A stretch of 37,427 bases of DNA, from IMG/VR virus record IMGVR_UViG_3300036770_003673, positions 1-37,427 of that record; one strand, written 5' to 3'. The notes under the pieces are model-generated. The model saw nothing but the letters and a program-made list of their open reading frames with translations, ran no database searches and was not told the origin of the DNA. This DNA is from a virus. Shown here piece by piece: positions 13,901 through 34,090 of the stretch (positions within the stretch are counted from its first letter, which is position 1; every line of letters begins with the position of its first letter). The translations under genes were made by a program, and so were the position numbers.

Positions 13901-16900
13901 AGAAAAGGTTATTACCAAATCCCTACTAATTTAGAATTCAATCCTAATAACTCAGAGATTGGTTCAATGAGTATGGGACAGTTACGCAATCATCTTAATG
14001 TAATTGGTCAGAATATTAAAGGACTAATTGGTGATATTAACGGTAATAGTAATATTACTAATTTTGATTATGCACGTCGACCTGGTACTATTTTACAGCA
14101 TAGTTCTTTATTTGCACTAGCTCCTTTGTTTTTAGTTGGACAACAAGCTAACTTTATTGATGCATTGGATGCTGCCCGCAGAGATTATACTAGATTCAAA
14201 CACAAGTTTTTAGAATTGTCTGGCACTCTCAACGGTATAAGCTCCGACAATATTGTAGACAGTGTAGACAGAATTATCGATGCAATCAATTCTAGTAAAA
14301 ATCCATTGAATTTTCCTTACTACTACAGTGATATGCTGCCAGTGGGTAGCAAATATGTTACTAAAACTTTTACAATAAAAAGTACAATCAGCAGGTCGTT
14401 TATTGCTGATCGAGACCTGAGTACAGTTCGTGGACTATTGGTTTATCTAAACGGCGTACAGCTAACTAAAGTTTTCGATTACAATATTTCTGGATTCACA
14501 ATTGAATTAACAAACTCAGTTACTATTGCAGTCAACGACAAATTGATTTTACGGGAGTATGCAAATACAGACGGCTGTTATGTTCCAGAAACTCCAACAA
14601 AATTAGGGTTATATCCTAAGTTTCAACCATTGAAATTTTTAGACAATACTTATAGAGATGACATATATGTTATTCAAGGTCACGACGGTAGTTTAACACC
14701 AGCATTCAACGACTTTAGAGATGATTTGTTATTAGAATTTGAACGCCGTATATACAATAATATTAAGATTGATTACAATCCAGAAAACTTTGATATTTGG
14801 TCAAATATACCAGGTAAATTCCGAAACACTGATTACTCGCTGACAGAATTTAATCGAGTACTTAACACAGAATTCCTACGCTGGGCCGGGAACAATCATT
14901 TAGACTATACACTAAATGACACATACTTGGCTAATGATCAATTTAGTTACAATTATAATAGGGCATCAGACATTGATGGTCAATCAGTGCCTGGCTACTG
15001 GAGAGGAATTTACAAATATTATTTTGACACTGATCGTCCTCATAGTCATCCTTGGGAAATGTTTGGTTATACACTTAAACCAACATGGTGGGATAATACC
15101 TATAGTTGGACCGATACAGCAAAACGTAGCTTATTAATTAGTGCTGTACGTTCAGGGCAACCTAGCCCGGTTATTGCCAATGGACTGCAATTATATTACG
15201 ATTGGGGTAATACAGATTGTTATAGCCAAGGCAATACATTTCTTAATTTGGTTGATTCTACTAGAAACAACGGTTATCTAAAAAATAATATCAAATATAG
15301 CTCCGAGCATGGTGGTATCATGCGTACCGGCGGATACAACAGTGGAATTTCGAATTCAGTTGGTGATCGTATTGATATCGAAACCTATGCTGGTGGCACA
15401 GATAGATTTGGCAATGGAGATTTTACCATTGGATTCTGGGTCAAAAAACTCGAAGGCCCTGCTGGTAGTAAATTATTAAGTACAGGCAGTGCCGGGGCAT
15501 TGTCTGGCAATGACGATAAGTGTATTTGGCAATTCTATATCAGTGACCAAGGATTTTACTGGTGGAATTCGTCAGGCGGCAGTACTAACAATATTCAAGC
15601 ACTAGGATCATTTGTTGAAACAGGTGTTTGGCAGTTTGTTACAGTTACCTATCAGTATAACAATTCTGGCAATAATACAGTGCGTTGTTATATTAACGGC
15701 AAACAAAAACTAACGGCCACAGTCAGCACCGGAACTCACGATTATGTTGATCGCACAGCAGAAAATTCGTTACAGTATACATTAGGGGGTGGATATAGCA
15801 GCAGTTGTATGACCACTAACACCAAAGCTGAATTTGGTCCCTTTATGCTGTACAATCGTACTTTAACTGCGGAGGAAGTAGATTTTAATTATCGAGCGAG
15901 CAGTTCTAGATTTGAATTTGGTGTTAATACCAGACGCAGTGATTTATATCGTCGACCACGCTTCAGTGAAATTGTGCCAGTTGGCACAGATGGTAATCTA
16001 ATACCACCAATGGGCTTGATAGTACAAAATTTCAACACCCAAACCTTTAGTAGAAGTTTTAGTGTAGGGGATCACGGTCCGGTTGAGTCAGCATGGCGAA
16101 GAACTAGTGATTATGTGTTTGCTTTGCAGAAGGCCATGGCTTTGCTTAAGCCTGCACAGTATTTTGGCAGACTATTTGATATTAGTTCGTATGGTCCACA
16201 AAGCATAGGTGGCGATCGACAATTTGCGAATTTTGCTAGTCATAAAAGACACAACATAAATCAAATATCAGTCTTAGGTACGCCCACTGATACAGATGTA
16301 GCTCGACCAATTGGATACATTAATTGGGTATATTCGTATCTAATTGGGTTAGGAATTGATCCAGTAACTAAACTCACCGGACTACTTCAAAACACCGACG
16401 TTAATCTTGTCCATAAATTAGGGGGGTTCACTGACAAGCAGTATATACAAGTACTAGCTGAGCAGTTTAGTCCAGGCAGTGTCAGCGAAAGTGTAATTAT
16501 CCCAGATGAAAATTATCAAATACAACTAAACAAAAGTGTTCCGGTTGATCGCGCTGTGTACAGTGCTGTAATTGTAGAAAAGAGCAATCAAGGTTGGACT
16601 GTGACCGGATATAATCTTCGCAATCCTTTCTTTACAATCATTCCTAGTGAAACATCTGGTACATACTATAACATTTCTGTTCTTGACACCGCTGCTACGA
16701 TCTATCAGCAATTTAGATCCGAAAAAATTATTATTCCTTATGGATTTGAATTTACTAGTCGCCAACAAGTTGTAGACTTTTTAGTTAGCTATCAGCGTTT
16801 CCTAGTAGCACAGGGTTTTGTGTTCGACAACTATGACAATACATTAGCGGTAGTTCGTGATTGGATTCTAAGTGCTAAAGAATTTTTAACCTGGAGCCTT

Positions 16901-19900
16901 CAAGGCTGGGGACCTGGCAATGTACTAGTATTAAGTCCAGTGGTAGACAAGCTCAACATTGTTAGCACCGATGCAGTAGTAGATAGTTTGGTTAACAGTG
17001 TCTATGATAGCCAGCTGATGGGACCAAATTTCAATGTCCTTAAGAAAAATGACTTCAGTGTGCTGCGTGACAATTCTAGAACCAGCATTTACACTATCAG
17101 TGGTCAAACAGTGGCATTTGCTGATTTGAGCCTGGTTCAGTATGAACACGTAATGATATTTGACAATGTCACAGTGTTTAACGACATACTATATAAACCT
17201 GAGTTAGGTAATAGACAGTATAGATTAAAACTAGTAGGTAGCAAAACTGATAACTGGGATGGGCAACTTACACCACCTGGTTTTTTACATGTAGATAGTC
17301 GTTATCAAGCCTGGCAACCAAATCAAGAATATCGCAAAGGTGACAGTGTTGAATACAGAAATCGTGTGTATGTGGCCATGCAAAACATTTCGCCCGATGT
17401 CAACTTTAATTTTAATTCTTGGAAAGAATCGGATACCATAGTAGAGTCTGGATTAGTTCCTAACTTTGCATTGTTAGCCAGCAGATTAACCGAATTCTAT
17501 AATGTTGACAGCGAAACTCTTGATGAAAATCTAGCACGCTTTAGCAGTGGATTAATTGGGTATCGTACCAGAACATATCTTAGTGAACTTGGGTTAGATG
17601 AAACCAGTCAGCTCAAGTTTTACCAAGGCATGATCAAGCACAAAGGTACATTAAACGCCATGGAAGCATTGATCAAAGGCGACTTTGATGATATCAGTAG
17701 TTCCATACAGCTCTATGAAGAATGGGGAGCACGACTAGGTGAATATGGCGCCATTGACGCCAACCCAGAATTAACTATGATGATTCGTGAGAGTGTGTTT
17801 AACAGAAACCCAACTAGCTTTGAGTTTTTGAATTACAATCAAACTCCTGATTCCTCTAGTATTCCTGCTGTATATCCAAATCAACTGTTAAACATGAGTG
17901 CAGATTTTGATCCGCATTTGTTCTTAAACAGAAACAGTCAAAATCATAAATTAGTTGAGGATTTAGACCTACGCATTAAAACACGACTAGCCAAGATTGA
18001 ATTGTTTGGTGATAATCTCATATGCGGTACACAGCCTAGCGAATTAGTAGCCTATAGTATCAGTGTAGTAGAAAACCTGGGATATGATATTGATGTACTA
18101 GGATCTACTACTTATGGTGTGCAACTATTAGACGATAACGGGTTAATATTTGATAGTCGTAGTGTAGGAGATGCTATAACTATCGCTGCTAAATCAACTC
18201 TCAGCGTTGAAGATCTCGAATACGTTATTGAATCGCCAACCGAATTAGATCGCCAGTTGCAGGCTGACAACGAAATTGATTTCACTGTAAGCAGTGCATA
18301 CCCAGGACAGCCTTTAACTATTTCTGTTCGTAGTAAACAGTTAATTGAAAAATTAGAGTACTCAATTGAAAGTCCTACACAAGAAGATGTATTCGCTGAT
18401 CGTGTAGTGGATATTCGAGTACTAGATCGAGTACGTGCAGGTCAAGAAATCGGCTTCAGTGTAATGAGTATTAAAACTACTGAAACACTGTACTGGAGTA
18501 TCGAAACACCAAACGAAGGCGAAAGTTATACATTTACCTATCTTGAAAGTCCCGACGGTTGTAAAGTAAAAGAAGATGGCAACATTGATCGGGTAGGGCA
18601 ACGTGTCGACGAGCCAGTGGATTATTTGTTGTATTCGGCCCTGACCGATGATAGTTTAATTTCCGTCACTACAAGATCAGTAGGCGGCAGCACCAGCAGT
18701 GAATTATTTGCTGGCACTGATGGTGCCAATGGCCCATGGCCCGATGACATCGACGCTGACATCGTAATTATCAATCACGGGCTAAACGATGCTAAACAAC
18801 GAATTGAAGTAGACTATTATAAAAATACTTTAGAAAACATTCGTGCCAATTTGAACAGAAAGACTGCGATAATCTGGGTACTACCACCTCCGGTGAATAT
18901 GAGTTTACCTACTGAGAATGGTTTAATTGATCCTAGAACTAATTGGAACAAAACCGGTGTACTAGAACAATACAGAAACGCCATGCGTGAAGTAGCAGTA
19001 TTAGGCGGAGATTATGTAGTTGATCCTGCCGAAATCCCAAATTGGCAAGATTACTTGGATGTAGATCCAATGATACCTAACCAGCATGGATATCGTGCAT
19101 TGGTCAGGGAGTTACTAGCACCAGCAGTGCGTACTGCTATTAGAGATCGCAATCAGGGCAACCAAGAAAGCTACGAGAATGATGTTATCACTGCTGGCTA
19201 TGTTAAGAACGATGAAGTACACAAACAAATTTTTGACATTTCAAAGTACTCATTTACTTCAATTGATCTCAGCAAATTTGAAACTGGTTATAAAATATGG
19301 TTAGCTAAAGATTTTAATCATGAGTGGCAAGTCTACAGACTACTACAAAACGAGTTTGTGGTACAAAGTATGCAGCCAGATCTAGACAATAAGATCACAG
19401 TGAATCTATGGAAAGGGCCGCCCTTAGACACTACTGTAACCGGAACCAGGGATGGTTTTACTGCTGACGATGTTGCTGCTATTGTAAATTCTTGGTATCT
19501 TAAGTACGCTTACAGAAATGGTGAACAAGGCGGGCTAGATTACTGGGTAGGAGAATACATCAATCGTGGCATTGAACTAAACGACCTAGAAGTTATTTTT
19601 AGAAATATTGTCTATCAATTTATCAATAGTGGACAGGAATTAAGTCAACAATACCATGGCATAGTGGAAGGTGACATCATTGCTATTCGTGGCGTAGCTG
19701 ATGGATTAGACGGTGTTTATCGTGTGTTATACAGCGACAACTCTACCGTGACTATACAAGGAACACAAGAACAAAATAATTTCCTAAACAACAGTGATAC
19801 CTACGGACTCAATAGCACAATCTTTGATTTCCAACCTATGCGTTTTGATGACATGAATCATCTAAGAAAAACCAAGCCTAAGAGAGCTTGGATGGCTGAT

Positions 19901-22900
19901 GATTTATTGTATGTAGACGATGCCGGTTTAGGTACATGGAGAGTATATAGTCCAGAAATCGAAACCTATGCTAATACTACTCAAACAGTAACTAATGTGC
20001 GTTATGAAAATACCTATAGTATTAGAATAGAAAATTGTGATGCTGGTCCTATGCCTACCACAGTGGCCGGCATTCGTGATGGAGTTACTGCCGACGATGT
20101 AGCCAGTATTGTGAATACATTCTATCAAAAGTATCTACTAAGAAATGCTACACAGGTGGAACTTGATCGGTTTGTAAGTCGTGTGTTTACCGATTTAACT
20201 AAAGAACTAAATCAACATATAGAAAATATTGAAAACGAAATACGTATCAGTGACGAAGCACAACAACTAGTCAGTAGTGGCATGCTTATTCCGCAGATTG
20301 ACACTGGTGAAAGTATAAACTTTACTATTCTCAGCAGCGAAGATACCGAGGACTTATACTGGACCATTGAAGCTATCGAGGACGAAACGTCGGTTAGACC
20401 TGACAATACTTCAGGAAATATTGCTGAAGTATTCTTAGATACAGTTGCAGTAATTAATCCAGTGTACAAGTTCAATCGCGTAAGAGACTATGAGTTACAG
20501 GTTGATGTCGACAGCATTGGTAATGCCTATATCTATAATAACAAAACCAAACATATTTTAGCACGTTTAGACATTTACGATCCAGTTAAAGGAAGATTAT
20601 TAGGTGCTTCGCAACAAGATCTTGATTATACAACCAGCATAGATCCTGCACAGTATAATGCAGCTAGTGCAGTTAATCCTAGCCCATATGACCCATACTA
20701 TGGCTGGAGAGAAGATTATGTAGGTACCTACTGGTGGAATCTTGACAATTGCAGATTTGGTTTTTATGAGCAAGGTAGTCTTGCTTATAGAGAACAGCAC
20801 TGGGGAGAATTATTTCCTGGCAGCAAAGTAGAAGTATATGAATGGATCGAAACAGATGTACTACCAAGCATATATGTTCAACAAGGACGAGATGGCGTTC
20901 CTCTCTATCCTGATGATAGTAATTATACCAGTGTAGTACGTGTAGATCCGGCCAGTAACGGATTTACTACTCGTTATTTCTATTGGGTACGTGCTAAAAC
21001 AGAAAAAACTAATCCTGCTAAACGTCTTAGTGTAGCAGCCATTGAAAAATTTATTGAAAATCCTTTCTCGCAGAATATACCATTTATGGTTGCTCTCAAG
21101 GATAACGCAGTAAGTTTGTTTAATGTTGGTCCTTATGTACAAGGTGATGATAGTGTGCTATACATTAGTAGTAAACGCACTCTCACCGAAAACATTATTC
21201 ATACCGATTTTGGTATCATACAAGAAGGTAATCCCGATACTCCAATTCCTGAAAGACTTGAACAAAAAATTATAGACAGTATCTGTGGCATTGACTCTGA
21301 AGGTAACTTAGTTCCTGACGCAGCCTTGCCTTACACACGCAGGTATGGTATAGAAAATTACCCGCGCCAAAGTGTGATAGTAGATCGTATAGAGGCTAGA
21401 GAAAACGTAATCAAATACATTAACTCGGTGTTGATAAAGCATCCTGTAGCTGACAGGCTAACCGATCTACCAAACGATTACCTAGATAATTTTTATGCAG
21501 TTGACAGACCAGCTGCTAATTCTTACACTGATCAAACGACAAGTTTTGCTGATTTGGCAGCTATAGTAGCCGGGCCAGGTAAACGTGTATTGGTTAATTA
21601 TGATGAAACCATGGGCGACCATTGGTCTATTTACGAAATTTCGATAATTGCTACTAATAGAACAAGTTACATTTTTGATTATGCAGATTTTCAAAAGAGT
21701 TATGCATTTATATTACCTATACAAGTAACTACTAATCCTGCCACCTATACCTATTACGGATTTACTTTGGTTAAAAGACAGGGCTTTGACACAAGAAGAT
21801 ATTGGAGCTTTGTTGATTGGTATGCTGAAGGATTTAGTTCTAGGACTAAACCAAATTACATTGTACCAAATATTACCGAAGTTCATAAATTAGATCTACA
21901 ACATGGTGACATTGTTAAAGTTTATCAACTAAGTGTGTATAGTGAGGTTGCGGCCGCATACAACGGTGACTTCGAAAGTACTGGAGATTTTGAAATTTAT
22001 CAGTACCAGAGTGTAGATGGAATCCTACGTCCAAAATTGATTGGTCTATCCAATGGAACTATACAAATTGGCAAGGAGTTCTATCGTAACTGGGGCTTCG
22101 ATACTGAGCGTTTTGATTCCTTGGGGTTCGATTATAATCTTGATTACGAGTTACGTTGGATCATGAAAGGACTCAAAGAAGACTTACTCGTCAATGATCT
22201 AGAAGTAGAATACAATAAAATCATGTACTATATTATAGATTATATACTCACTGAGCAAAAGTACATTGATTGGTTCTTTAAGACTAGCTTTATTAGCGTA
22301 AAACAATCTATCGAAGGATTTAAGCAGCAACCAGGATTTATTAAAGATCGTCAAAAGAACATCGAAGAATACATTGCCGAGGTTAAACCATATAGAACAA
22401 AGCTTCGTCAATTTATATTAAATTACAGTGAGGTTGATGTATATTCGACTAACATAACCGACTTTGATGTGCCAGCATATTGGGACACTAGACTACAAAC
22501 TTTCAGGCCTCCTAATGGTGACATGGTTTACGATCAACAATTGTTAATGTCTGGTCAATATCAAGATTGGTTACGTAACTATCATTACAGAATTGAACAA
22601 GTAGATATCTACAGCACTGGATATGGATATCGTGGATCTACAGAAACCACATTAGTAGCACCGGAAATAATTTTTAATAGACTTGATTCGGCAATTGGCG
22701 AGGATGCAAAAGCTGAAGTAACACTAGATCCTAGAACTTTCGGCATAGATAATCTTGTACTCACTCAACGCGGAAATCGTTACTTAATGGCACCCGAGGT
22801 ACAAGTAATTGGTAACGGAGGTACTATTGCTAGTGATACAAGAACATTCGACTATGTGGTTACTTCAATTGGGTTGTCTGACACATCGGCTTCGGGAAAA

Positions 22901-25900
22901 ACATATAATACATTTACCCTGCGTAATACCACTGAAAATACGGTATTATGGTCAAGTCCTGCTCGTAGTTATACTATGCATCGTATCCGACGTGTTGACG
23001 GACGGCATGTGTTCACTAGTCAGTATGATGTTTTCGGTAGCATAGATGAAGCTAAACGATTAGCAGTTGATTTAGATAATACCACCAGCGACTATATTGT
23101 AGTAGTGCATACCTACGATGAACCGCAGACTAATAGGTTCTACGGTGGACTAGCTGAAAGCATGTATCGTTGTGGCGCAAGTCGTGCAGTATTTGGTAGC
23201 AGCAATTTCCGTTATCGTAGTGCCTATGTCTTAGTGGGTATTCCTGAATCAGGTGAAGGCAACGGAATTGAAAACTATGCTGGATTAACAAATAACAGTA
23301 CCACTGCATATGCTAGTGTACGTTTTGCACTACGTGGTGGTTATTTGGTCCCACTGGAAGCAGATCCAAGATTATACAGTATCGGAACTGCTATAAGTTT
23401 CCCAACTAATCCTGCACCAAACCAAACCTACACCATGGGTAATAAATCTTGGATTTGGAATGGAACTGGGTGGAATGTAACACGACGTCCAGTGGGATTC
23501 CTAGACGGAGATGTTGCCCCAAGGCGTGCTCAATTAATCGCCAGACTAGAAAATTATACCACACGCAAAATTAAAACCACTATACGTTTTGATAGAGTTT
23601 GGTATACCAGCAGTGTTGTAAATTGGGTAGCTAATGTAGCATACAACCCCGGTACACTATTGAGTTATAATGGTCGTGGTTATCTAGTAGTTAGCAAAAT
23701 GCCAGCAAATTCTAAATTCCAATTTGGTTATGTACAAGAATTAAACAGTGGTACATTTAACAATGCCAATGATAGAATTATGGCTTACTATGTGCCTGAC
23801 ACCGAAACTAACTTAGGCATATCTAAAGACCTAGAACAATTAGTTCCTGGTATCGGTGGTGCCCCAGCCTATGATTTCAGCAGCGACGTGGGACTAGACA
23901 CAATATTAATTGGCGATACTTTTGGTAGCACTGAAGGATTAAATGCCGGGAATATCATACTCAGTGGCGGACGATTTGTTGATGCATTGTTTAGTCATGC
24001 TCCAGAAGAATTAGTACCGGGCAGGACTTATGAAACAGTTGACATTCGTGTAGTTACTTCTAATAGCACTGATACTGGATTTAGATATTTTAAGAATATG
24101 AATGATGTAGTTACAGGCACAGCATTTACTCCGTCAACAGTAACTACATTGGCACTACCATTGTTAGTTACAGATACTAATATCACAGTGACCAATGGCA
24201 GTATCTTAACTATACCTAATCCTGGTGCAGTATTGCCTGGGATCGTCTACATTAATGGAGAGCGTATAAGTTATTATACTAAGGTTGGTAATGTACTAGG
24301 GCAAATTCGTAGAGGCATTGATGGAACCGGTATCGCTCAAACGCATCCATCTGGATCTAGAGTTGAGGATGTTAGCCAGGCTCGTGCTAGTACACTGTAT
24401 CTAACAGACTACACTATACCAGTACCTCCAGTGGTCCCTACACCTGCAGCCATCACAGAGCCGCCGATTCCGGTACCAATACCAACCCCGGTACCAGTGC
24501 CAGTGCCTACACCAATACCAACTCCGGTACCAGTGCCAGTGCCTACACCAACACCTATCCCGCCATTGGTAGTGCCAACATTTACCCCAGGAACATGTCA
24601 GGATGGATACAAATTGGTTTCAAATACATACACAACTTCAACAACAATTACGATTCCACTAGGAGTAACTGCTTTAACGCTAGTAGGAAAAGGATCAGAC
24701 GGAACGCAAATCAACCCACAGTGGGAAAGCTCTTGGACTACAGGCCTGCCAGGTTTTGGTCCGGTCTTTGCCAGAATTGAGCCAACTGCGCCTTCGTTTA
24801 TTACTAGCCTAGATATTGAAAATTCAGCAACTACTTACTATAATAGTATACCATCTTTACGTATCAATGATGGAGGTTTAAGTTGGTTAACCAAAGTGTA
24901 TGTAGCAGGAAGGTTATATGAATTCTATTATGCTGCTAGAGTAAGATTGAAAATCGGTGGCGTCAAAGCCAAATTGGGCAATGGTTGGGGTAGTACTTTT
25001 GCTACCCCAATCAGCGAGCCAAAATTATATGCCATTGATGGCACACAGTACGAAGAATACCGTGGCGGTACCAATGGTGTTGCTGCTGGATTTGACAATA
25101 CAGTGATATTCTACGGTGGACAAAATGGTAATCCTGCACCATTTATGCGTACCACTGTACAAGTAACACCGCAAGCTACTTATAGCTTAAGCATTCCGCC
25201 TGGTGGCAGTATCAGAGTAGAATACTGTGAGCCAGTTAGTTTGCCAGTGGTATCCGTCCAACCCAATGGAGACGCTGTGTTTACTACACCCGGCGCCTTT
25301 ACATGGACTTGTCCTGATGATGTTACAAAGATCAGTGTATTAGCTGTTGGCGGAGGTGGTGGCGGTGGTTATGCTGCTGAAGGTCAGGGCGGCGGGGGCG
25401 GCGGAGGCGGCGGCCTAGGTTGGATCAACAATTATACAGTGGTTCCCGGTACTACATATACCGTAGTAGTAGGCAATGGTGGATCAGCTGGTTACAACGT
25501 CGACGGTGGCAACGGCGGAGATAGTTACTTTATATCAACTGCAACTGTAGCCGGATTCGGGGGACGCGGCGGAGTAAAAAGTATTAACCTAACAGCTGGA
25601 GCCGGACAAGGTGGCTTGTTTGCTGGACAAGGCGGTGGGGCTGGTGGTAACGGAGGCCAAGAAGTACTAGGCTACGGCACTGGTGGCGGCGGAGCTGGTG
25701 GTTATGCTGGAGCCGGTGGTGCTGGAGGTAACTTTGGTAAAGCCGGCTCTGATGGATTCGGGGGAGGTGGTGGTGGCGGTGCCGGTGAGTACAGCGCAGC
25801 CGGACCCAGCGCTGGTGGTGGCGGTGGTGTAGGGTTATATGGACAAGACATCAATGGCGCCGGCGGAAAATACAATCCAAATCCAACAGAAAGAAGAGGT

Positions 25901-26107
25901 CTAGGTGGTAGCAATGGACAGAATGCTAGCATTGGCGAAGGTAAACTCAGCCAGGGCGGACTATATGGCGGTGGTGGTTCTGGTGGCAGTGCTGCTACAA
26001 TTAAGATGGGCGGCGAAGGTGGTTCTGGTGCTGTAAGAATTTTATGGGGCCCAAGTAGAAAGTTTCCTGGTACTGATGTAAATACCAGCGAAGGAACAAG
26101 CTCTTAA
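10910..26107 (+). CDS. Giant 5065-residue baseplate/fibre structural protein
   Basis: One frame is open for 15.2 kb. The start follows TAACGGA closely. Domains I can see, by residue: 1-165 N-terminal module (FLPQVFQTDTNKKFLGSTLD) known from structural proteins of aquatic T4-like phages; 168-245 cupredoxin-like; 1425-1662 LamG-type lectin fold; about 1838 GFTDKQYIQVLAEQF; 2133-2173 CBM5/12-like; about 2234 KFYQGMIKHKGTLNAMEAL, weakly like T4 gp7; 2426-2538 three short beta repeats (LEYxIESP type); 2540-2740 SGNH-hydrolase-like; 2843-2914 and 3050-3117 DUF4214-like pair; a fourth beta repeat near 3145; 4024-4125 ILEI/PANDER-like; about 4238 second CBM-like; 4503-4560 Pro linker; 4803-5058 glycine-rich C terminus ending GAVRILWGPSRKF. 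Its place after gp6 and its ends suggest wedge attachment at the N terminus and host contact at the C terminus. gp7 equivalence is only a guess. Confidence 0.85.
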   Translation: MAVNRRTINFLPQVFQTDTNKKFLGSTLDQLISEPDLKKINGFIGRKLSPSLRGNDNYIVETNSDRQNYQLEPTIVARDSNQDVEFVATYSDIINKISFYGGITNDHSRLFESEYYNFDPHIDLDKFVNYSQYHWVPEGPEVVTISSRAPIQGNTITFTRSGNNYLTNQTGSVANPTIYIVRGQSYTFTISHTPTQGNLWIQSEPGRSGVKQYAVGISSRSVLGISNNGINTGNVSITIPDRTSQDQYLDLDLFEAVDYALSGSFTAVDGATWTSSLNIGGQTFFADNRYVIFTTSSTSAADWTNRSSTVVDSTQRRGIWRTNLVQLPGDAAPKIHLTFVKSIPANSRVAVKSGSREGFEYFVNSTGLFEQIPDLTAPLDILYYQNSLNESCRGEIRILDHGRILDIDRDIVGNESYITPQGQVLRDGMLLYFDDTVFPEQYRQRYFYVEGVGQRIVLVPQDQLPAIETISVDYITINRSSIDRNPWSRCNRWFHADLLGHLSEQRLIETRAKRPIIEFEPNLQLYNYGRVNLAIVDYLFDENTYINVNGVQTVFTNASTVINNATYESLENTFTFPLKQGQLCIFANDVSNTVKQRVYRLDYVDQSGSSSFNGTIAGEATGVQGSYKIISGNADNTTSFAIELGIGYDLFTKTNVYLGRVSDINGNYELTLDRPLTVNLVKADGIKFIKPRALLTVLHTAEYYHSVSVRSGLNQGESFYWYQKIYSDPASTVSAPIITLVDHWRRAQTKNQTNQEPLFDIILDNTAQFTGTNLQVKNISLGHELFFEKNVSFTNANQTFRDSKFAGTPLFSYTRGNTPIDPYLNFNLEYISSADFIGDINFTNNYNSDMFEYRGLDSNRNISLVSGKIDVGYIRRNRGLDDNEFDKFTMWSSVGITERNRFIADTTKQYQHISAVYDGITSYFNIDTEPAQEHSEAESEPNIKVFVNNRFVPRLRLGMSPAYQFERVGVANAVKIDQRILSFNDNIDILVYSKKAGRKGYYQIPTNLEFNPNNSEIGSMSMGQLRNHLNVIGQNIKGLIGDINGNSNITNFDYARRPGTILQHSSLFALAPLFLVGQQANFIDALDAARRDYTRFKHKFLELSGTLNGISSDNIVDSVDRIIDAINSSKNPLNFPYYYSDMLPVGSKYVTKTFTIKSTISRSFIADRDLSTVRGLLVYLNGVQLTKVFDYNISGFTIELTNSVTIAVNDKLILREYANTDGCYVPETPTKLGLYPKFQPLKFLDNTYRDDIYVIQGHDGSLTPAFNDFRDDLLLEFERRIYNNIKIDYNPENFDIWSNIPGKFRNTDYSLTEFNRVLNTEFLRWAGNNHLDYTLNDTYLANDQFSYNYNRASDIDGQSVPGYWRGIYKYYFDTDRPHSHPWEMFGYTLKPTWWDNTYSWTDTAKRSLLISAVRSGQPSPVIANGLQLYYDWGNTDCYSQGNTFLNLVDSTRNNGYLKNNIKYSSEHGGIMRTGGYNSGISNSVGDRIDIETYAGGTDRFGNGDFTIGFWVKKLEGPAGSKLLSTGSAGALSGNDDKCIWQFYISDQGFYWWNSSGGSTNNIQALGSFVETGVWQFVTVTYQYNNSGNNTVRCYINGKQKLTATVSTGTHDYVDRTAENSLQYTLGGGYSSSCMTTNTKAEFGPFMLYNRTLTAEEVDFNYRASSSRFEFGVNTRRSDLYRRPRFSEIVPVGTDGNLIPPMGLIVQNFNTQTFSRSFSVGDHGPVESAWRRTSDYVFALQKAMALLKPAQYFGRLFDISSYGPQSIGGDRQFANFASHKRHNINQISVLGTPTDTDVARPIGYINWVYSYLIGLGIDPVTKLTGLLQNTDVNLVHKLGGFTDKQYIQVLAEQFSPGSVSESVIIPDENYQIQLNKSVPVDRAVYSAVIVEKSNQGWTVTGYNLRNPFFTIIPSETSGTYYNISVLDTAATIYQQFRSEKIIIPYGFEFTSRQQVVDFLVSYQRFLVAQGFVFDNYDNTLAVVRDWILSAKEFLTWSLQGWGPGNVLVLSPVVDKLNIVSTDAVVDSLVNSVYDSQLMGPNFNVLKKNDFSVLRDNSRTSIYTISGQTVAFADLSLVQYEHVMIFDNVTVFNDILYKPELGNRQYRLKLVGSKTDNWDGQLTPPGFLHVDSRYQAWQPNQEYRKGDSVEYRNRVYVAMQNISPDVNFNFNSWKESDTIVESGLVPNFALLASRLTEFYNVDSETLDENLARFSSGLIGYRTRTYLSELGLDETSQLKFYQGMIKHKGTLNAMEALIKGDFDDISSSIQLYEEWGARLGEYGAIDANPELTMMIRESVFNRNPTSFEFLNYNQTPDSSSIPAVYPNQLLNMSADFDPHLFLNRNSQNHKLVEDLDLRIKTRLAKIELFGDNLICGTQPSELVAYSISVVENLGYDIDVLGSTTYGVQLLDDNGLIFDSRSVGDAITIAAKSTLSVEDLEYVIESPTELDRQLQADNEIDFTVSSAYPGQPLTISVRSKQLIEKLEYSIESPTQEDVFADRVVDIRVLDRVRAGQEIGFSVMSIKTTETLYWSIETPNEGESYTFTYLESPDGCKVKEDGNIDRVGQRVDEPVDYLLYSALTDDSLISVTTRSVGGSTSSELFAGTDGANGPWPDDIDADIVIINHGLNDAKQRIEVDYYKNTLENIRANLNRKTAIIWVLPPPVNMSLPTENGLIDPRTNWNKTGVLEQYRNAMREVAVLGGDYVVDPAEIPNWQDYLDVDPMIPNQHGYRALVRELLAPAVRTAIRDRNQGNQESYENDVITAGYVKNDEVHKQIFDISKYSFTSIDLSKFETGYKIWLAKDFNHEWQVYRLLQNEFVVQSMQPDLDNKITVNLWKGPPLDTTVTGTRDGFTADDVAAIVNSWYLKYAYRNGEQGGLDYWVGEYINRGIELNDLEVIFRNIVYQFINSGQELSQQYHGIVEGDIIAIRGVADGLDGVYRVLYSDNSTVTIQGTQEQNNFLNNSDTYGLNSTIFDFQPMRFDDMNHLRKTKPKRAWMADDLLYVDDAGLGTWRVYSPEIETYANTTQTVTNVRYENTYSIRIENCDAGPMPTTVAGIRDGVTADDVASIVNTFYQKYLLRNATQVELDRFVSRVFTDLTKELNQHIENIENEIRISDEAQQLVSSGMLIPQIDTGESINFTILSSEDTEDLYWTIEAIEDETSVRPDNTSGNIAEVFLDTVAVINPVYKFNRVRDYELQVDVDSIGNAYIYNNKTKHILARLDIYDPVKGRLLGASQQDLDYTTSIDPAQYNAASAVNPSPYDPYYGWREDYVGTYWWNLDNCRFGFYEQGSLAYREQHWGELFPGSKVEVYEWIETDVLPSIYVQQGRDGVPLYPDDSNYTSVVRVDPASNGFTTRYFYWVRAKTEKTNPAKRLSVAAIEKFIENPFSQNIPFMVALKDNAVSLFNVGPYVQGDDSVLYISSKRTLTENIIHTDFGIIQEGNPDTPIPERLEQKIIDSICGIDSEGNLVPDAALPYTRRYGIENYPRQSVIVDRIEARENVIKYINSVLIKHPVADRLTDLPNDYLDNFYAVDRPAANSYTDQTTSFADLAAIVAGPGKRVLVNYDETMGDHWSIYEISIIATNRTSYIFDYADFQKSYAFILPIQVTTNPATYTYYGFTLVKRQGFDTRRYWSFVDWYAEGFSSRTKPNYIVPNITEVHKLDLQHGDIVKVYQLSVYSEVAAAYNGDFESTGDFEIYQYQSVDGILRPKLIGLSNGTIQIGKEFYRNWGFDTERFDSLGFDYNLDYELRWIMKGLKEDLLVNDLEVEYNKIMYYIIDYILTEQKYIDWFFKTSFISVKQSIEGFKQQPGFIKDRQKNIEEYIAEVKPYRTKLRQFILNYSEVDVYSTNITDFDVPAYWDTRLQTFRPPNGDMVYDQQLLMSGQYQDWLRNYHYRIEQVDIYSTGYGYRGSTETTLVAPEIIFNRLDSAIGEDAKAEVTLDPRTFGIDNLVLTQRGNRYLMAPEVQVIGNGGTIASDTRTFDYVVTSIGLSDTSASGKTYNTFTLRNTTENTVLWSSPARSYTMHRIRRVDGRHVFTSQYDVFGSIDEAKRLAVDLDNTTSDYIVVVHTYDEPQTNRFYGGLAESMYRCGASRAVFGSSNFRYRSAYVLVGIPESGEGNGIENYAGLTNNSTTAYASVRFALRGGYLVPLEADPRLYSIGTAISFPTNPAPNQTYTMGNKSWIWNGTGWNVTRRPVGFLDGDVAPRRAQLIARLENYTTRKIKTTIRFDRVWYTSSVVNWVANVAYNPGTLLSYNGRGYLVVSKMPANSKFQFGYVQELNSGTFNNANDRIMAYYVPDTETNLGISKDLEQLVPGIGGAPAYDFSSDVGLDTILIGDTFGSTEGLNAGNIILSGGRFVDALFSHAPEELVPGRTYETVDIRVVTSNSTDTGFRYFKNMNDVVTGTAFTPSTVTTLALPLLVTDTNITVTNGSILTIPNPGAVLPGIVYINGERISYYTKVGNVLGQIRRGIDGTGIAQTHPSGSRVEDVSQARASTLYLTDYTIPVPPVVPTPAAITEPPIPVPIPTPVPVPVPTPIPTPVPVPVPTPTPIPPLVVPTFTPGTCQDGYKLVSNTYTTSTTITIPLGVTALTLVGKGSDGTQINPQWESSWTTGLPGFGPVFARIEPTAPSFITSLDIENSATTYYNSIPSLRINDGGLSWLTKVYVAGRLYEFYYAARVRLKIGGVKAKLGNGWGSTFATPISEPKLYAIDGTQYEEYRGGTNGVAAGFDNTVIFYGGQNGNPAPFMRTTVQVTPQATYSLSIPPGGSIRVEYCEPVSLPVVSVQPNGDAVFTTPGAFTWTCPDDVTKISVLAVGGGGGGGYAAEGQGGGGGGGGGLGWINNYTVVPGTTYTVVVGNGGSAGYNVDGGNGGDSYFISTATVAGFGGRGGVKSINLTAGAGQGGLFAGQGGGAGGNGGQEVLGYGTGGGGAGGYAGAGGAGGNFGKAGSDGFGGGGGGGAGEYSAAGPSAGGGGGVGLYGQDINGAGGKYNPNPTERRGLGGSNGQNASIGEGKLSQGGLYGGGGSGGSAATIKMGGEGGSGAVRILWGPSRKFPGTDVNTSEGTSS
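24488..24551 (+). repeat. Proline-linker DNA repeat, 36-bp period
   Basis: CCGGTACCAGTGCCAGTGCC and the eight bases that follow occur at 24488 and again at 24524, coding PVPVPVPTP-type sequence. They form the core of a Pro-rich hinge (about 24418-24590) between the body of the giant protein and its C-terminal beta and glycine-rich domains. Confidence 0.8.
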
Positions 26108-27249: not shown

Positions 27250-28425
27250 ATGTATAATATTAATAAAAGCAACGGAGAGTTTTTAGTTGCCATTGAAGAA
27301 GGTACCAGCGACAGTGTAGCAACTAGCTTGACTCTAATAGGTAAAAATTACAGTAACTACGGCGAAGTTCTAAATGAAAATTTAGTACGCATAACTGAAA
27401 ACTTTACTGGGTATAATCCACCAGCTAGCCCGATGAAAGGCCAGTTATGGTATGACGACACTGATAAAATTCTAAAGTTGTGGAATGGCGATACTTGGAC
27501 TGCTGCCGGTAGTGGAGTACAATTAGATCAAGAAAGCACTGCTGTGCATTTTGTTACATTTGTACAAACAGAATATGGTGCACCACCTTTTAAGGTAGCC
27601 GGTAACAAAGGTATTGTGTTTGAGCCTGCCAGTGGTAATATGGGAATTGGCAAAAGTACAAGGCCTACCAGTAAATTAGAAATCAATGGTAATACTGCGT
27701 TTAATCGTGTATTTTCTGCGCCAGTAGGTGGCATCAATGAAACCATTGTGCATTTACACGGCGATGATACCGCCGGCGGTAAGAGTGCCAGACTGGTCAT
27801 TGACAGTTACGGATTCAGGCCAAACGAACGAATTGGTAGTGTGCTACACTTTAGACGTAGCCGTGGAACAAGTGGTAGTCGTAGCGCAGTAATAGGCAAC
27901 GATATCTTAGGTGGTATTGCAGCACACGGTTATGATGGTTCATCATTTAGCGAAATTCAAGGTTATGTTAATTTTCAAGCTGCTGAAAATTGGAGTCAAA
28001 CTGCACACGGCACCAAATTAGAAATTTGGTTGACACAAGCTAAAACATTACTAGCTAGTCGTGTAGTAGAAATTACCAGTTCTGGTGATATCAAAGCTGA
28101 AGGTGATATTGTAGCATATACATCATCGGATATTGATCTTAAAACTGATGTACGTAAAATTACCAATGCACTAAGTAAAGTATTAAGTTTAGATGGTATT
28201 ATATATCGTTGGGACGCTGATAAGACCATTGACAAAGACCTAGATCGTGATCATGCTGGTGTAGTAGCGCAACAAGTTTTGAAGGTACTACCCGAAGCTG
28301 TTATACGTAGAAAAAATGGTTCACTGGCAGTTAACTACGAAATGCTGGTACCTTTGTTAATTGAGTCAATTAAAGAGCTTGAGTCCAAGCTGTCAGGAAT
28401 TGAAGGTACCGGGAAACTAGCGTGA
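27250..28425 (+). CDS. Tail fibre protein with self-cleaving S74 chaperone domain
   Basis: The N-terminal 85 residues (FLVAIEEGTSDSVATSLTLI, GKNYSNYGEVLNENLVRITE, MKGQLWYDDTDKILKLWNG) are a module common at the start of fibre proteins in aquatic T4-like phages. The middle is beta-rich. The last 100 residues form a peptidase S74 intramolecular chaperone: SSDIDLKTDVRKI, GIIYRWD, DHAGVVAQQVLKVLPEAVI, VNYEMLVPLLIESIKELES. The catalytic Ser-Lys pair spaced by five is visible as S293 and K298, so the chain is expected to cut itself just before S293 after trimer folding. CGGAG sits 7-8 bases before the ATG. The stop TGA overlaps the GTG start of the next gene. Confidence 0.85.
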   Translation: MYNINKSNGEFLVAIEEGTSDSVATSLTLIGKNYSNYGEVLNENLVRITENFTGYNPPASPMKGQLWYDDTDKILKLWNGDTWTAAGSGVQLDQESTAVHFVTFVQTEYGAPPFKVAGNKGIVFEPASGNMGIGKSTRPTSKLEINGNTAFNRVFSAPVGGINETIVHLHGDDTAGGKSARLVIDSYGFRPNERIGSVLHFRRSRGTSGSRSAVIGNDILGGIAAHGYDGSSFSEIQGYVNFQAAENWSQTAHGTKLEIWLTQAKTLLASRVVEITSSGDIKAEGDIVAYTSSDIDLKTDVRKITNALSKVLSLDGIIYRWDADKTIDKDLDRDHAGVVAQQVLKVLPEAVIRRKNGSLAVNYEMLVPLLIESIKELESKLSGIEGTGKLA

Positions 28426-31400
28426 CTTTACCGTATTGGACTCCTAAGCCCGGCTACACATCGTTATCCTTAAAACAAATACAGGATGAGTTTGGGTGTG
28501 TTATTTTAACCCCAACGCCTTTTATTCCGATTCCAATACCTCCTTTTGTTGTACCGGACGAACCTGCTATACCGACGTTTGAAGTTGCTATGCTAGCTTT
28601 CACGTATAATAAAGTTAGCATAAATGAAACCACAGATAATACTGTAACATTTACGTACTCTTTTACTAATAGAGGAACTAAAGTAATCATAGCCGAAATG
28701 GTTCCACTGGGCGCAATAACTGCGTCAGACTTTACGGGGTCAACTCGATTTGAATTAAGTAACGATTCGGGAACCTTCAATTTGACTGCAAATGCAGACA
28801 ATTATACCGAAGGCGAAGAAAAATTCAAAGTCGCATTTTATGTAAAAGACGGTAAACTAGATCCCTTTTATACCAGTCCGCCTATATCTATACTAGATAC
28901 CAGTGCTACCCCTCCACCTGTTCTTAGTATACTTCCTAGTGCTTTGCCCAATGGTCGTGTTGGTGTTGCATACACACAAGAACTCACTGTTGTAGGTGGG
29001 GACGGTAACCATATAGTAGAGCAAACCAGTGGAACATTGCCCACTGGGCTGAAATTAGAAAAGATTGGATCAAAATACACGATCACTGGAACACCCACTG
29101 TACCGAATACTTATAACTTTACTCTTACAGCCACTGGTGTTGTTGATTTTGGTATTGGGAGTGCATCATTGACAATTATAGTCAATGGGGCCGGTTTAAT
29201 TATTAGTCCTACTTTACTTCCGCCTGGCAAAGTAAGTGAAGCATATACTCAACAGTTAACAGCATCCGGTGGCAATGGTAACTATACATTCAGTTTATTA
29301 TCTGGATCATTGCCTACTGGTATAAACTTTTTAACCGCCGGTGGTATAATATCTGGCACGCCCACTAGTAGTGGTTCATATCCTATAGTAATTAAAGTAG
29401 TTGATACCAATGGTGGATCGGGCGAACAGTCATATAATTTAGTAATAGCTGCCCCTATTAGTTTATTAATCCATCCCGAGCAATTAAACATTGCTAAAGT
29501 TGGAACTGAATATCAACAAGGTGTAGAAATGGTTTCGCCTGGGACGGTGGCACCACTGACATGGACATTTACTACTTTGAGTGGTAGTACCACCGGTGTA
29601 TTCCCCACTGGAATAAGTGTAGGTCCAATGGGTGGAATCGTTGGGTCGAATCGATACTTAATATCGGGTACTCCTGCCACCGGCAGTATGGCCAAATATC
29701 CTATAGTGGTTACTGTGAAAGACGGTGCTAATAATTCTGGAACAAAAACTTATGATCTTATAGTCACTGATCGCGATGCTTCGGTGATTACTATTGCAAA
29801 TGCCACTGAGTTATATTATGCAGTACATAATATCGAATATAACGAACAGCTAATTAGCACTGGTATTACCGGAGGAACCGTTACTTATTCACTAGATGGT
29901 TCACTGCCCCCAGGGCTTAAATTAAGCAGCAGTGGTAGAATATCAGGCGTTCCTAATCTCCCTGACAGTTATAAACTTTATAGATTCACAGTTGTAATAA
30001 CTGACGCACAACGCGGGTCTGGCAGTAAATTATTTACGATGCCGGCAGTTAAGTATTCTATTACTCCGGGATCTACGGCGGTATCAGCTGGAAAAAGCGT
30101 ATTATTAGATGTTGAAGGGGCAGACATCGAAGGTGTTACATTACAAGTCGTGAATCCTAATACCGAAACTCTTGCAACCGGGGCCGGAGTGCCAAAGTTT
30201 AGTTCGTCTGGAGGTACAAGTGTTGTTGTACAAAACAAAGATAAGAAGTTGTTAGATGATCAAGTTGTCAATTTTGGTGAAATGGCTCTTAGCACCAAGA
30301 AAAAATTAGTAACCATTACAGCTAAGGCTAGTCATTTCAATGAATTTACCTCCAATCCTTTACTTGAAAATACTTACATTTCAATAACCATTGATACCGT
30401 TACAACTAAAATAAATCACACTTATGGGCGTGGGCATACTATTGCCACTATTAATGAAAAGACCGCGGTTTGCGAAAGAATAGTCACTATTGATACATGG
30501 GGCGGCGGAACTAAATTAATTCCTGAAGTCAATCTACCTGGTTGGTGTAAGACAACATACGCAGAGCCCGCTGGTTCTGCTCAGTCGTTTGACACCATGA
30601 CTATAAAATCACAAGAGATTGACTCTGTAGGAAATTTTAGTTTTTCTGAAAATTGGGTAACGCCGGGCTACAGTATACAATGGACAGGTTTTTTCCTAGC
30701 TGCACATGGCGCCGGAAGATACTATTTTGACTCGTCGGTGGACGATCTGTTAGCGGTATGGATCGGTGATCAAGCGGTATCGGGGTACACCTGGGAAAAT
30801 GCTACATTTATATCCAGGCTGAAACAACCAGCTGGTGCTAGTATAGAATTATTAGCTAACAAATTGTATCCCATTAGAATACAATTTGTTCAAGTTGGAG
30901 GCCCGGGAAATTATTCGCTTGGTTGGGCGCCTCCATCGAATCCCAGTGCTTTTTCAACTAATTTTAGTAGTGTGATGGTTAACCGTGGTAGATGCAATGG
31001 AACAAGTCGACCAATCCTTACTGATATGTACCATGACGCTTATAGTGCCTTTAAGGATTTTATCACCGAAATAGATAATGTTCCAGAAGGAAGAATAATA
31101 GCTGTAACTAGTTTTGATGCAATACAAATAACCAAACCCATGCGAGCATTGTTGGCGAGTTTTGGAGGTCTTTCGCCCTCGAAAGACACTATTATTGAGA
31201 CTCAAGATGTTTCACAGTCCCGAATCAGACATACGTTTATTGGGAAAAAAATTGGAACATCCGCTGCCATTAAAGAAAAATTAAGTACAACGCTTACACC
31301 TTTCACTGCGTACACCCTGGAAATTGAAGGTCCGGATACAGTGAATGTACCGTCAAATTCGGTCCAGTTTATTGCTTTTGGTCCTTATAAAAGCAATAAT

Positions 31401-34055
31401 AAGACAATATTTACTAGATCCACAACGGTCACAGTAAGCCCTAGCAGTTTACCATCAACTTTGCAAGTGGCCGGACCTACAATCATAACAAGTCTATCGG
31501 CATTAACTGTTAATATTCTCAGTGAGCCCGGTGACACTGTAAGCTGGGAGTACATTCCACCGGGCCAATGGTATTTAGATAATATCTATTTTGATTACTA
31601 TCCAGATGTAGCTGCGGCATGGGAAAGAGATAGCCAAGGAAAAACCAAAACTGATTATGCAAATACACATTATACAAATTGGGGCAGAGTCGAAAATAGA
31701 AAAAGTCCCACTGAACTTCTTAGTATAGTAGGGGTTGGTAGTAATACAGTACTAACCGAGAGCTCTAAATCAGTTAGTTTCAGTGGTCAACCAATTCTTC
31801 CTAGAAAAACTCCTTATAAATGGATGTTTACTTCTGCTAAGACTAAAACTACTGACACAATTGAAGTAAAGTTTTATTCAGGCAAACTAGTAGTAACATT
31901 GGATCCAGATAGATTTTCAATAGTGTCTGGGGAACAAATTAAAGTATCTATTCAAGGCGCCGGTCTTGAACAAGTAACTGTGAGCAGTGGCAACGGATTA
32001 CCGGGCGCGGTATTAAACCTGGATTCCAATGGCAGTGGGTTTTGTGTGCTGGTGCCAACAGGAAGTACAGTAGTAACCTTAGGTACCTATACCTGGACTT
32101 TCACTGGGACAGTTAGTGCTTTTACGAGCTTTAGTGTAACTGTTGCCGGAGCTAATTATTCTGTGTTTGTTCCTGATGAGATTATATGTAACAAAGCTGG
32201 TATTATTACAAGAAGTAACACAGCTGATCGTCTCAGTGGTGCACCTAATAGGAAGTATGATATATATAATGCTGTTAATGTTTACACCGGACAAAGTGTT
32301 ACTACCCCAGCATCCGGCATAGCCACTGGATTCATAGTTAAATATGGTGAAGTAGCTCAGGCAGCAGTCTACCAAAGAATCATCAAAGATTCCACTGATA
32401 CTACCCGATCTGTCACAGTTAATTATAGAATTACCCATTACAATGAATTTGTAACTGCTGGTTATGTCACATCAATGACTACACAACACCAGTCTGGTGC
32501 ATATTTGTTTAATAAGAATGAAACATTCAAATTTGTTATCACTGGCACTGCGCCCGGCGAAACAGTTCAACGTAGTTTTACTATCTATGATAATTCCGGT
32601 AAACAAATTTCGTTTGGTGAATCGGCTCCTAAGAGCAAAACAGGCGAATACTTTTTTGATGATGAAAAGATTCCGTCGACCTCTCCGGACCAAGGCCGAG
32701 TATTATTCACTTTTAAGTTTACTAAATCCGAAAACATTGTAGAGTACGAATACAAATATGGTACCCCAGCCCCGTTTACAGTAACAGCCACAGCTACACC
32801 TAGATTTACTGTAGTAACAGCACAAGGATCAGTAAATGCTTACAATCCAACAGAGCCGATATTTTGGACGGTGACAGGAAATCCCGGCGATGATATCTCC
32901 GTTGAAGCTCCTGTATATACAACAGTTGAAAAAATTAATGATACAGACTACACTATGTTTACTGTTGCAGAAGGAACATGGACACACACCAGGCATATTG
33001 GATATGTAACAAAAAGATCAAAAATATCCAATTCGGGATCAATAACGATTGATGTACACGGTGGCGAAAATGGCTTTCCGGTATTAACTCAGTATCAAAA
33101 AGATTATTATAGTCCAATTGGGGCCGGGGTTACTAAGACTGCTCGTCTAACTGTCATTGACAGACCTCCTAATGTCGACGGATCCTACCCGAGTGGAAGT
33201 ATAGTAGTTTACAGTGACAGAAAATTAGAAACTGCATACAAATATAAATTTACATTCAAGAATACTACCACTGGTGCTACAGCGGTTAAAGAGTTTTGGG
33301 TTTTAGCCTACAAATATCTGAATACAATTCCTGGTGCAACTTTTAATGAAACTAGCAATGATGTTCATGTATTAGATTTATCTACTAATACAATGAATGA
33401 AGGGACGTCGCAGAATGCAACCTATAGTCTGAATCAGCCGCCGGGAATATCGTCATTTACTATTGAGTCTAGTGACACCGCTGCTATTACTGTGTCGACT
33501 GGTACACTAATAGTAAATTCTATTCCCGATGCCCAAATGTACAGAAGCAGCCCGGTTACACTTACTTCTCAGATAGTAAATGCCGATAAAAATGTCTATA
33601 TTACAGTAAAACGAGATGGGCGCATAGTAGTGCGCCAGACAATCATTGTAAAAAATAATACCGCAGGTATTCCTAATGTATTAGCCGAATCTGATCCTAT
33701 AATAAGGTTTGGTCATCTTGACATCAATGGCAGTTTATTTCCGGCGTTTGAAGTAACTTCAGCAGCTACAAAGGTTACAGTTGAAATAACCGTAGGTACT
33801 TACTTTCCAGAAGTTATGCCGGGCAGTAATACTGATAGTTATGTTAGTATCTACGATGGAGTACCACCAGCTAATGACCAATTCGGAGTCGACTTTACTG
33901 GATTACGACGTGGGAATCTAACTTCAGGGGTAAACATATTTACTGGATTGTTTACAATTGGTACAAATTTTATCATGCGTATATGGGTAGCAACTGCAAC
34001 AGCTAGCTATACAAAGGCCTATAGTTTTGTGAGTGGCTCACAAGGTGCATCTTAA
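28422..34055 (+). CDS. 1877-residue Ig-repeat / PA14 / ILEI tail adhesin
   Basis: The start is GTG, overlapping the previous stop (GTGA). The N terminus carries SLSLKQIQDEFG, a short motif seen at the start of many phage fibre proteins, then a Pro-rich stretch. Domains by residue: 58-160 Calx-beta-like (VSINETT ... YTEGEEKFKVAF ... ISILDTS); about 168-543 four putative-Ig (He_PIG) modules (NGRVGVAYTQELTVVGGDGN, GLKLSSSGRISGVPN); about 700-835 PA14/GLEYA-like (IQWTGFFLAAHGAGRYYFDS, SVDDLLAVWIGD, LYPIRIQFVQ); about 871-946 ILEI/PANDER-like (FKDFITEIDNVPEGRIIAVT, SFDAIQI, MRALLASFGG); the rest further Ig-like beta modules. PA14 domains bind glycans in other proteins, so host or matrix binding is plausible. 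I see no signal peptide or enzyme active site. The length is unusual for a fibre subunit. Confidence 0.8.
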   Translation: MTLPYWTPKPGYTSLSLKQIQDEFGCVILTPTPFIPIPIPPFVVPDEPAIPTFEVAMLAFTYNKVSINETTDNTVTFTYSFTNRGTKVIIAEMVPLGAITASDFTGSTRFELSNDSGTFNLTANADNYTEGEEKFKVAFYVKDGKLDPFYTSPPISILDTSATPPPVLSILPSALPNGRVGVAYTQELTVVGGDGNHIVEQTSGTLPTGLKLEKIGSKYTITGTPTVPNTYNFTLTATGVVDFGIGSASLTIIVNGAGLIISPTLLPPGKVSEAYTQQLTASGGNGNYTFSLLSGSLPTGINFLTAGGIISGTPTSSGSYPIVIKVVDTNGGSGEQSYNLVIAAPISLLIHPEQLNIAKVGTEYQQGVEMVSPGTVAPLTWTFTTLSGSTTGVFPTGISVGPMGGIVGSNRYLISGTPATGSMAKYPIVVTVKDGANNSGTKTYDLIVTDRDASVITIANATELYYAVHNIEYNEQLISTGITGGTVTYSLDGSLPPGLKLSSSGRISGVPNLPDSYKLYRFTVVITDAQRGSGSKLFTMPAVKYSITPGSTAVSAGKSVLLDVEGADIEGVTLQVVNPNTETLATGAGVPKFSSSGGTSVVVQNKDKKLLDDQVVNFGEMALSTKKKLVTITAKASHFNEFTSNPLLENTYISITIDTVTTKINHTYGRGHTIATINEKTAVCERIVTIDTWGGGTKLIPEVNLPGWCKTTYAEPAGSAQSFDTMTIKSQEIDSVGNFSFSENWVTPGYSIQWTGFFLAAHGAGRYYFDSSVDDLLAVWIGDQAVSGYTWENATFISRLKQPAGASIELLANKLYPIRIQFVQVGGPGNYSLGWAPPSNPSAFSTNFSSVMVNRGRCNGTSRPILTDMYHDAYSAFKDFITEIDNVPEGRIIAVTSFDAIQITKPMRALLASFGGLSPSKDTIIETQDVSQSRIRHTFIGKKIGTSAAIKEKLSTTLTPFTAYTLEIEGPDTVNVPSNSVQFIAFGPYKSNNKTIFTRSTTVTVSPSSLPSTLQVAGPTIITSLSALTVNILSEPGDTVSWEYIPPGQWYLDNIYFDYYPDVAAAWERDSQGKTKTDYANTHYTNWGRVENRKSPTELLSIVGVGSNTVLTESSKSVSFSGQPILPRKTPYKWMFTSAKTKTTDTIEVKFYSGKLVVTLDPDRFSIVSGEQIKVSIQGAGLEQVTVSSGNGLPGAVLNLDSNGSGFCVLVPTGSTVVTLGTYTWTFTGTVSAFTSFSVTVAGANYSVFVPDEIICNKAGIITRSNTADRLSGAPNRKYDIYNAVNVYTGQSVTTPASGIATGFIVKYGEVAQAAVYQRIIKDSTDTTRSVTVNYRITHYNEFVTAGYVTSMTTQHQSGAYLFNKNETFKFVITGTAPGETVQRSFTIYDNSGKQISFGESAPKSKTGEYFFDDEKIPSTSPDQGRVLFTFKFTKSENIVEYEYKYGTPAPFTVTATATPRFTVVTAQGSVNAYNPTEPIFWTVTGNPGDDISVEAPVYTTVEKINDTDYTMFTVAEGTWTHTRHIGYVTKRSKISNSGSITIDVHGGENGFPVLTQYQKDYYSPIGAGVTKTARLTVIDRPPNVDGSYPSGSIVVYSDRKLETAYKYKFTFKNTTTGATAVKEFWVLAYKYLNTIPGATFNETSNDVHVLDLSTNTMNEGTSQNATYSLNQPPGISSFTIESSDTAAITVSTGTLIVNSIPDAQMYRSSPVTLTSQIVNADKNVYITVKRDGRIVVRQTIIVKNNTAGIPNVLAESDPIIRFGHLDINGSLFPAFEVTSAATKVTVEITVGTYFPEVMPGSNTDSYVSIYDGVPPANDQFGVDFTGLRRGNLTSGVNIFTGLFTIGTNFIMRIWVATATASYTKAYSFVSGSQGAS

Positions 34056-34090
34056 AATACCTAGTTAATGTCAAGGTGTAAATACATATT

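Follow-up and report, generated by a model that had tools for sequence, protein, structure and literature searches.

A POMGnT1-stem-like ILEI/GG domain in a giant protein encoded among the baseplate genes of a large T4-like phage

Results

The window analysed here is the whole of IMG/VR record IMGVR_UViG_3300036770_003673 (37,427 bases), which represents part of the genome of a large T4-like phage. Baseplate family matches identify a wedge subunit (1756-2058), a hub/lysozyme (4367-6553) and a further wedge subunit (6569-6949), which we take to be gp25-type. These are followed on the plus strand by a gp6-type large baseplate wedge subunit (6996..10898; phrog_10646, E 3.7e-277), whose best relatives are found in Agrobacterium phage Atu_ph07, Sinorhizobium phage Phosso, Salicola phage SCTP-2, Pseudomonas phage PA5oct and similar phages. 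The next gene, also on the plus strand (10910..26107), encodes a giant protein of 5065 amino acids, two pieces of which match phrog_10938, a 'virion structural protein' family (E 7.8e-173 and E 4.9e-126).

Several blocks of the giant are collinear with the giants of Atu_ph07, PA5oct, BF and Phosso, in each of which it again lies next after the gp6-type gene; this is not the case in SCTP-2. The homologue in the PA5oct record carries the annotation ESI-MS/MS. In T4 the gene for the gp7-type wedge protein lies directly 3' of gene 6, and the same order is seen here, with the gp6-type gene ending at 10898 and the giant starting at 10910. Profiles of the N-terminal and middle blocks of the giant identified no baseplate protein, T4 gp7 included, among PDB sequences. 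From the gene order and the annotation of relatives we infer that the giant is a baseplate protein. Closer relatives are encoded on three IMG/VR contigs, L014, L015 (IMGVR_UViG_3300023179_000185) and L017, the giants of which align with that of the window at about 44-52% identity in the main blocks.

Several further features of the giant were recorded. A LamG-type domain (PF13385, E 1.1e-15; window 15401-15880, residues 1498-1657) sits in an apparently clean insertion of ~260 residues; of seven relatives, six (L014, L015, L017, Atu_ph07, PA5oct and Phosso) have only 0-33 residues between the flanking blocks, which in the window's giant lie at residues ~1416 and ~1680, and BF has about 102. A motif resembling CBM_5_12 (window 17309-17386, residues ~2134-2159) scores below the Pfam cut-off and seems to be part of the giant scaffold, because the giants of Atu_ph07, Phosso, PA5oct, L014 (42 bits) and L015 have it too. 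An SGNH/GDSL domain (window 18659-19099, residues ~2584-2730) is common to L014, L015 and L017. It lacks a conserved block-I Ser, and the His of the DxxH block is absent from the window, L014 and L015 and present in L017 (DGMH); an active enzyme was set aside as a candidate, since the catalytic positions look to be missing. Towards the C-terminus lies a glycine-rich domain (PF21722, window 25283-26044), and the stretch 24001-26000 has the highest GC content of the window (0.48).

Downstream lies a 391-residue protein (window 27250-28425) with a C-terminal part like that of many tail fibre families, a match that suggests a fibre end of the self-cleaving or chaperone type. Two very large fibre-like genes follow side by side (28422-37426); both have proline-rich linkers and repeats of Ig-like segments, and neither has a PHROG match.

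An earlier note, made from the sequence alone, had assigned an ILEI domain to the giant. The peptides that it quoted are present in the 5065-residue frame, with QYDVFG starting at residue 4038. A search of the window with PF15711, one of the checks that the note had proposed, gave a match at 22982-23242 (copy 1; E 2.1e-7, 26.7 bits, flagged as 27 with its neighbours) and none in any of 14 control genomes. The curated cut-off of this family is 27 bits. When isolated and searched against all of Pfam, copy 1 scored 25.8 bits (E 1.5e-5), under the cut-off, and in a 1699-residue piece of the protein it scored 21.2 bits. The Pfam evidence is borderline: at 25.8-27 bits, copy 1 lies at the cut-off or below it, according to the way the protein is divided. 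As a single sequence it found no match in the PDB with phmmer at E<=10. A 14-row profile built from phage and viral-contig domains matched seven PDB sequences at E<=10 (E 0.0066 to 0.84), all of them FAM3A/B/C, POMGnT1 or the cell surface hyaluronidase TMEM2. This alignment omits L019 (coordinates and identity the same as those of L018), L027 (only 67 residues matched), L003 and L004 (the contigs of L014 and L017) and the named-phage rows L011-L013; phage G is kept as L024.

The fold was confirmed independently of Pfam by structure prediction and comparison. An AlphaFold2 model of copy 1 from the 14-row alignment has a mean pLDDT of 82.3 and a pTM of 0.82. With Foldseek it matched 21 PDB entries at a probability of 1.00, all POMGnT1, FAM3 or TMEM2, the next match having a probability of 0.03. 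VIA-align superposed the model on the POMGnT1 stem with Z 14.3 (rmsd 2.3 over 137 residues), on TMEM2 with Z 13.6 and on FAM3C with Z 13.3; unrelated chains reached Z <=4.1. In a viral fold library the best match was phage G gp431, and the list included proteins named ILEI domain, receptor binding protein, tail fibre protein and gp35 hinge connector. The model thus strongly supports the assignment of residues ~3996-4152 of the giant (22895..23365, plus strand) as an ILEI/GG (PF15711) domain. The original placement at residues ~4024 to ~4125 falls within this domain; its start misses the first conserved strand, with Arg4019, and its end misses the last strands, the structural match extending to residue ~4145.

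The available text of PMC9437275 reports that Arg129 and Asp179 of POMGnT1 are essential for saccharide binding and that both are kept in the CBM_1 module of the TP-778L Tal protein. In the aligned POMGnT1 segment the sole Arg-Asp pair 50 residues apart consists of the Arg of QGRGIH and the Asp of VKDEGS, and these columns align with Arg4019 (22964..22966) and Asp4070 (23117..23119) of copy 1, both on the plus strand. Judged by profile alignment and spacing, Arg4019 and Asp4070 therefore correspond to Arg129 and Asp179. Both residues, together with a third co-conserved polar residue, Arg4103 (23216..23218, plus strand), are each present in 13 of the 14 aligned rows. These rows are only 39-56% identical to copy 1, and retention of the set at such divergence points to selection acting on the site. 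In all three positions the deviating row is L017, in whose collinear giant the Arg, the Asp and the third Arg are lost together while the invariant positions that were checked are kept. Although a single case, such a loss would be expected at a binding site and not in the fold core. The L017 giant is also the one in which the SGNH His is present.

The giants of L014, L015 and L017 carry the ILEI domain in the same position as in the window. PF15711 had no match anywhere in the records of Atu_ph07, PA5oct, BF or Phosso, and the whole SCTP-2 record has one match, at another place. Because the giant scaffold is common to Atu_ph07, PA5oct, BF and Phosso, in which PF15711 has no match, the domain is, on sequence comparison, an accessory module of that scaffold. 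At 11 other loci (L005, L016, L018-L023 and L025-L027, L018 and L019 having the same coordinates) and in phage G (L024), similarity to the giant extends little, if at all, beyond the domain. Among these other host proteins several have central tail fibre J or Peptidase_S74 matches, and a Klebsiella phage copy (L013) lies in a protein with Phage_Tail_Tip. The domain region has matches in 78 records of the phages collection, and the product names of several Erwinia/Dickeya jumbo phage records include 'ILEI domain'. Many relatives reach 27-42 bits with PF15711, others 20-26 bits or no match; over 23 distinct records there was a match in 16 and two matches in 2, the search of the relatives' contigs having left out L024.

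A second, divergent copy had been proposed in the protein that starts at 28422. This fibre-like protein of 1877 residues (28422..34055, plus strand) has Pfam matches to He_PIG repeats and to a PA14/GLEYA domain (residues 706-840, 30537..30941, plus strand; PF07691 E 3.1e-12, PF10528 E 1.4e-15), just after which, at residues ~848-940 (30963..31241, plus strand), lies a probable, shortened ILEI domain (copy 2). In the window search PF15711 matched it at 31023-31172 with 20.5 bits (E 2.0e-5); isolated, it scored 20.6 bits (E 6.5e-4) over profile positions 22-71 only, and its scores across all cuts, 16-20.6 bits, are below the cut-off. Its model has a pLDDT of 59.6 from an alignment of eight copy-1-type rows with two copy-2 rows. 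The best Foldseek match is FAM3C (E 0.07), and the fold match is not specific, with Z 5.7-7.8 for the ILEI family against up to 8.5 for designed Top7-type proteins. The Asp and the later Arg align; the position of Arg129 is apparently without an Arg, as read by eye where MAFFT is unreliable. The assignment of copy 2 as an ILEI domain is consequently probable but weak. At 18% identity, a recent duplication between copies 1 and 2 is ruled out.

Copy 2 had no relatives in the viral_contigs or phages collections. In IMGVR_UViG_3300023179_000185, however, the domain of the giant is accompanied by a second one, at 18033-18263 in a protein of 1331 residues, which has about 165 N-terminal residues in common with the 1877-residue protein (37%); used as a query, this second copy matched itself alone. 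The contigs of L014 and L017 end in or just after the giant, and an arrangement with copies in the giant and in a neighbouring fibre protein is found in both clade records in which the stretch is visible.

Discussion

We think it probable that copy 1, which lies in the C-terminal part of the giant, serves this large T4-like phage as a carbohydrate-binding module of the POMGnT1-stem type in its baseplate. Sugar binding can reasonably be proposed because the equivalents of Arg129 and Asp179 are present, and it is supported by the nature of the other proteins with the domain, which are tail proteins (J, Phage_Tail_Tip, Peptidase_S74). Counting against it, FAM3 proteins have the same fold and are, to our knowledge, not known as sugar binders. 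A phage precedent, the CBM_1 module of TP-778L Tal, in which the same two residues are described in the available text of PMC9437275, lends further support. On such a reading, copy 1 would lie on the outer rim of the baseplate and would bind a host-surface sugar (capsule, O-antigen or exopolysaccharide) weakly. Strength might be gained from the many copies per virion together with other candidate modules (the LamG and PA14/GLEYA domains and the probable second ILEI copy), so that the baseplate could be kept against the host surface during adsorption.

The most serious alternative, which we nevertheless judge rather unlikely, is that copy 1 is a structural connector that attaches another tail protein, such as a fibre or its hinge, to the baseplate in the manner of gp35 and binds no free sugar. 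The gp35 hinge connectors of several T4-like phages are among its viral fold matches, a GG domain is reported in phage gp35 proteins (in the available text of PMC10276149), and mutual docking would also be compatible with one copy in each of two neighbouring virion proteins from the same gene block. However, the homologous giants of four named phages are without the domain, so that this scaffold does not depend on it as a connector; it is found also in unrelated tail proteins; and the conservation of the Arg/Asp pair in 13 of 14 rows is a pattern tied to sugar binding by POMGnT1.

The occurrence of two copies had earlier been taken to suggest a general glycan-recognition role. The recurrence of the arrangement in IMGVR_UViG_3300023179_000185 speaks for this, but the two copies are not the product of a recent duplication and the second seems to lack the Arg129 equivalent. 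An extended version, speculative and improbable, makes the baseplate scaffold of this clade of large T4-like phages a receptor-binding device in its own right. POMGnT1-type modules, carried by the giant and by the fibre protein next to it, would together make up a multivalent ring that senses glycans, both holding the phage in place and linking the engagement of sugar to a rearrangement of the baseplate. If it were true, the two-protein recurrence and the loss of residues in L017 would reflect changes in host glycans.

A different suggestion is that copy 1 belongs to a glycan-modifying unit and positions polysaccharide for the SGNH/GDSL domain of the giant, much as TMEM2/HYBID requires its GG domain to break down hyaluronan. 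The SGNH/GDSL domain does occur in the same giant and in those of L014 and L015, and it aligns in L017; moreover, HYBID and mouse TMEM2 no longer degrade hyaluronan when their GG domain is mutated (as given in the available text of PMC10276149). The SGNH domain nevertheless looks degenerate, with no conserved block-I Ser and without the DxxH His in the window, L014 and L015, it lies about 1300 residues from the ILEI domain, and Pfam finds no polysaccharide-hydrolase domain in the giant, which makes this very unlikely. Least likely of all, copy 1 could be a passive, non-binding relic, kept as a spacer where the C-terminal region is being reshuffled rapidly. This would suit the L017 domain, which keeps its position but not the Arg/Asp/Arg set, and the eroded copy 2, but it is at odds with retention of the set in the other 13 rows, which points to selection on the site.

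We therefore return to a carbohydrate-binding module as the preferred reading of copy 1 and consider how it compares with known systems. Among animal proteins the human POMGnT1 stem (PDB 5ggf, 5ggj, 5ggl, 5ggn) has the fold in common with copy 1 (Z 13.3-14.3) and its saccharide-binding residues correspond; the two are only 10-12% identical over aligned residues, and one is the stem of a Golgi enzyme whereas the other lies in a virion protein. FAM3A/B/C (PANDER, ILEI) belong to the same Pfam family and have the same fold (Z 9.9-13.3), and are secreted. FAM3 proteins have conserved disulfide cysteines, whereas a single cysteine is found in residues 3996-4156 of the giant, leaving no intradomain disulfide.

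In phages, T4 gp35 is a separate fibre-connector protein. Phage gp35 (the T4-type long tail fibre hinge connector) is also a tail protein with a GG/ILEI domain and appears in the viral fold search, but its matches are far weaker (best gp35-type E 1.7e-3, rank 19), and it is a separate small fibre protein whereas copy 1 lies inside a 5065-residue protein next to baseplate genes. Bacillus phage G gp431 is among the closest named phage copies, at 41.8% identity over 129 residues; the open frames of phage G (1027 residues) and Erwinia phage Y3 (961 residues) are host proteins that differ from the gp6-adjacent giant. It should be noted that GG/ILEI domains are already known in phages. The available text of PMC10276149, citing Guo et al. 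2006, places GG domains in FAM3, POMGnT1, TMEM2 and phage gp35 proteins, and that of PMC6145125 places an ILEI domain in the tail fibre proteins of Basilisk-like Bacillus phages. According to the available text of PMC9437275, structure prediction likewise shows CBM_1, an adhesion-device domain of the Streptococcus thermophilus phage TP-778L, to resemble the POMGnT1 stem and to have counterparts of Arg129 and Asp179; copy 1 is compared here with that description. The CBM_1 module sits in the tail-tip Tal protein of a siphophage, whereas copy 1 is in the C-terminal part of a T4-like giant baseplate protein. Our literature searches on phage ILEI domains found no report of one in a giant gp6-adjacent host protein.

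The known range of a sugar-binding fold from animals, already found in phage fibres and Tal, now takes in a giant protein encoded among the baseplate genes of large T4-like phages, where naming Arg4019 and Asp4070 makes the sugar-binding claim directly testable. More broadly, these phages appear to equip a conserved virion scaffold with surface-recognition modules that can be exchanged.
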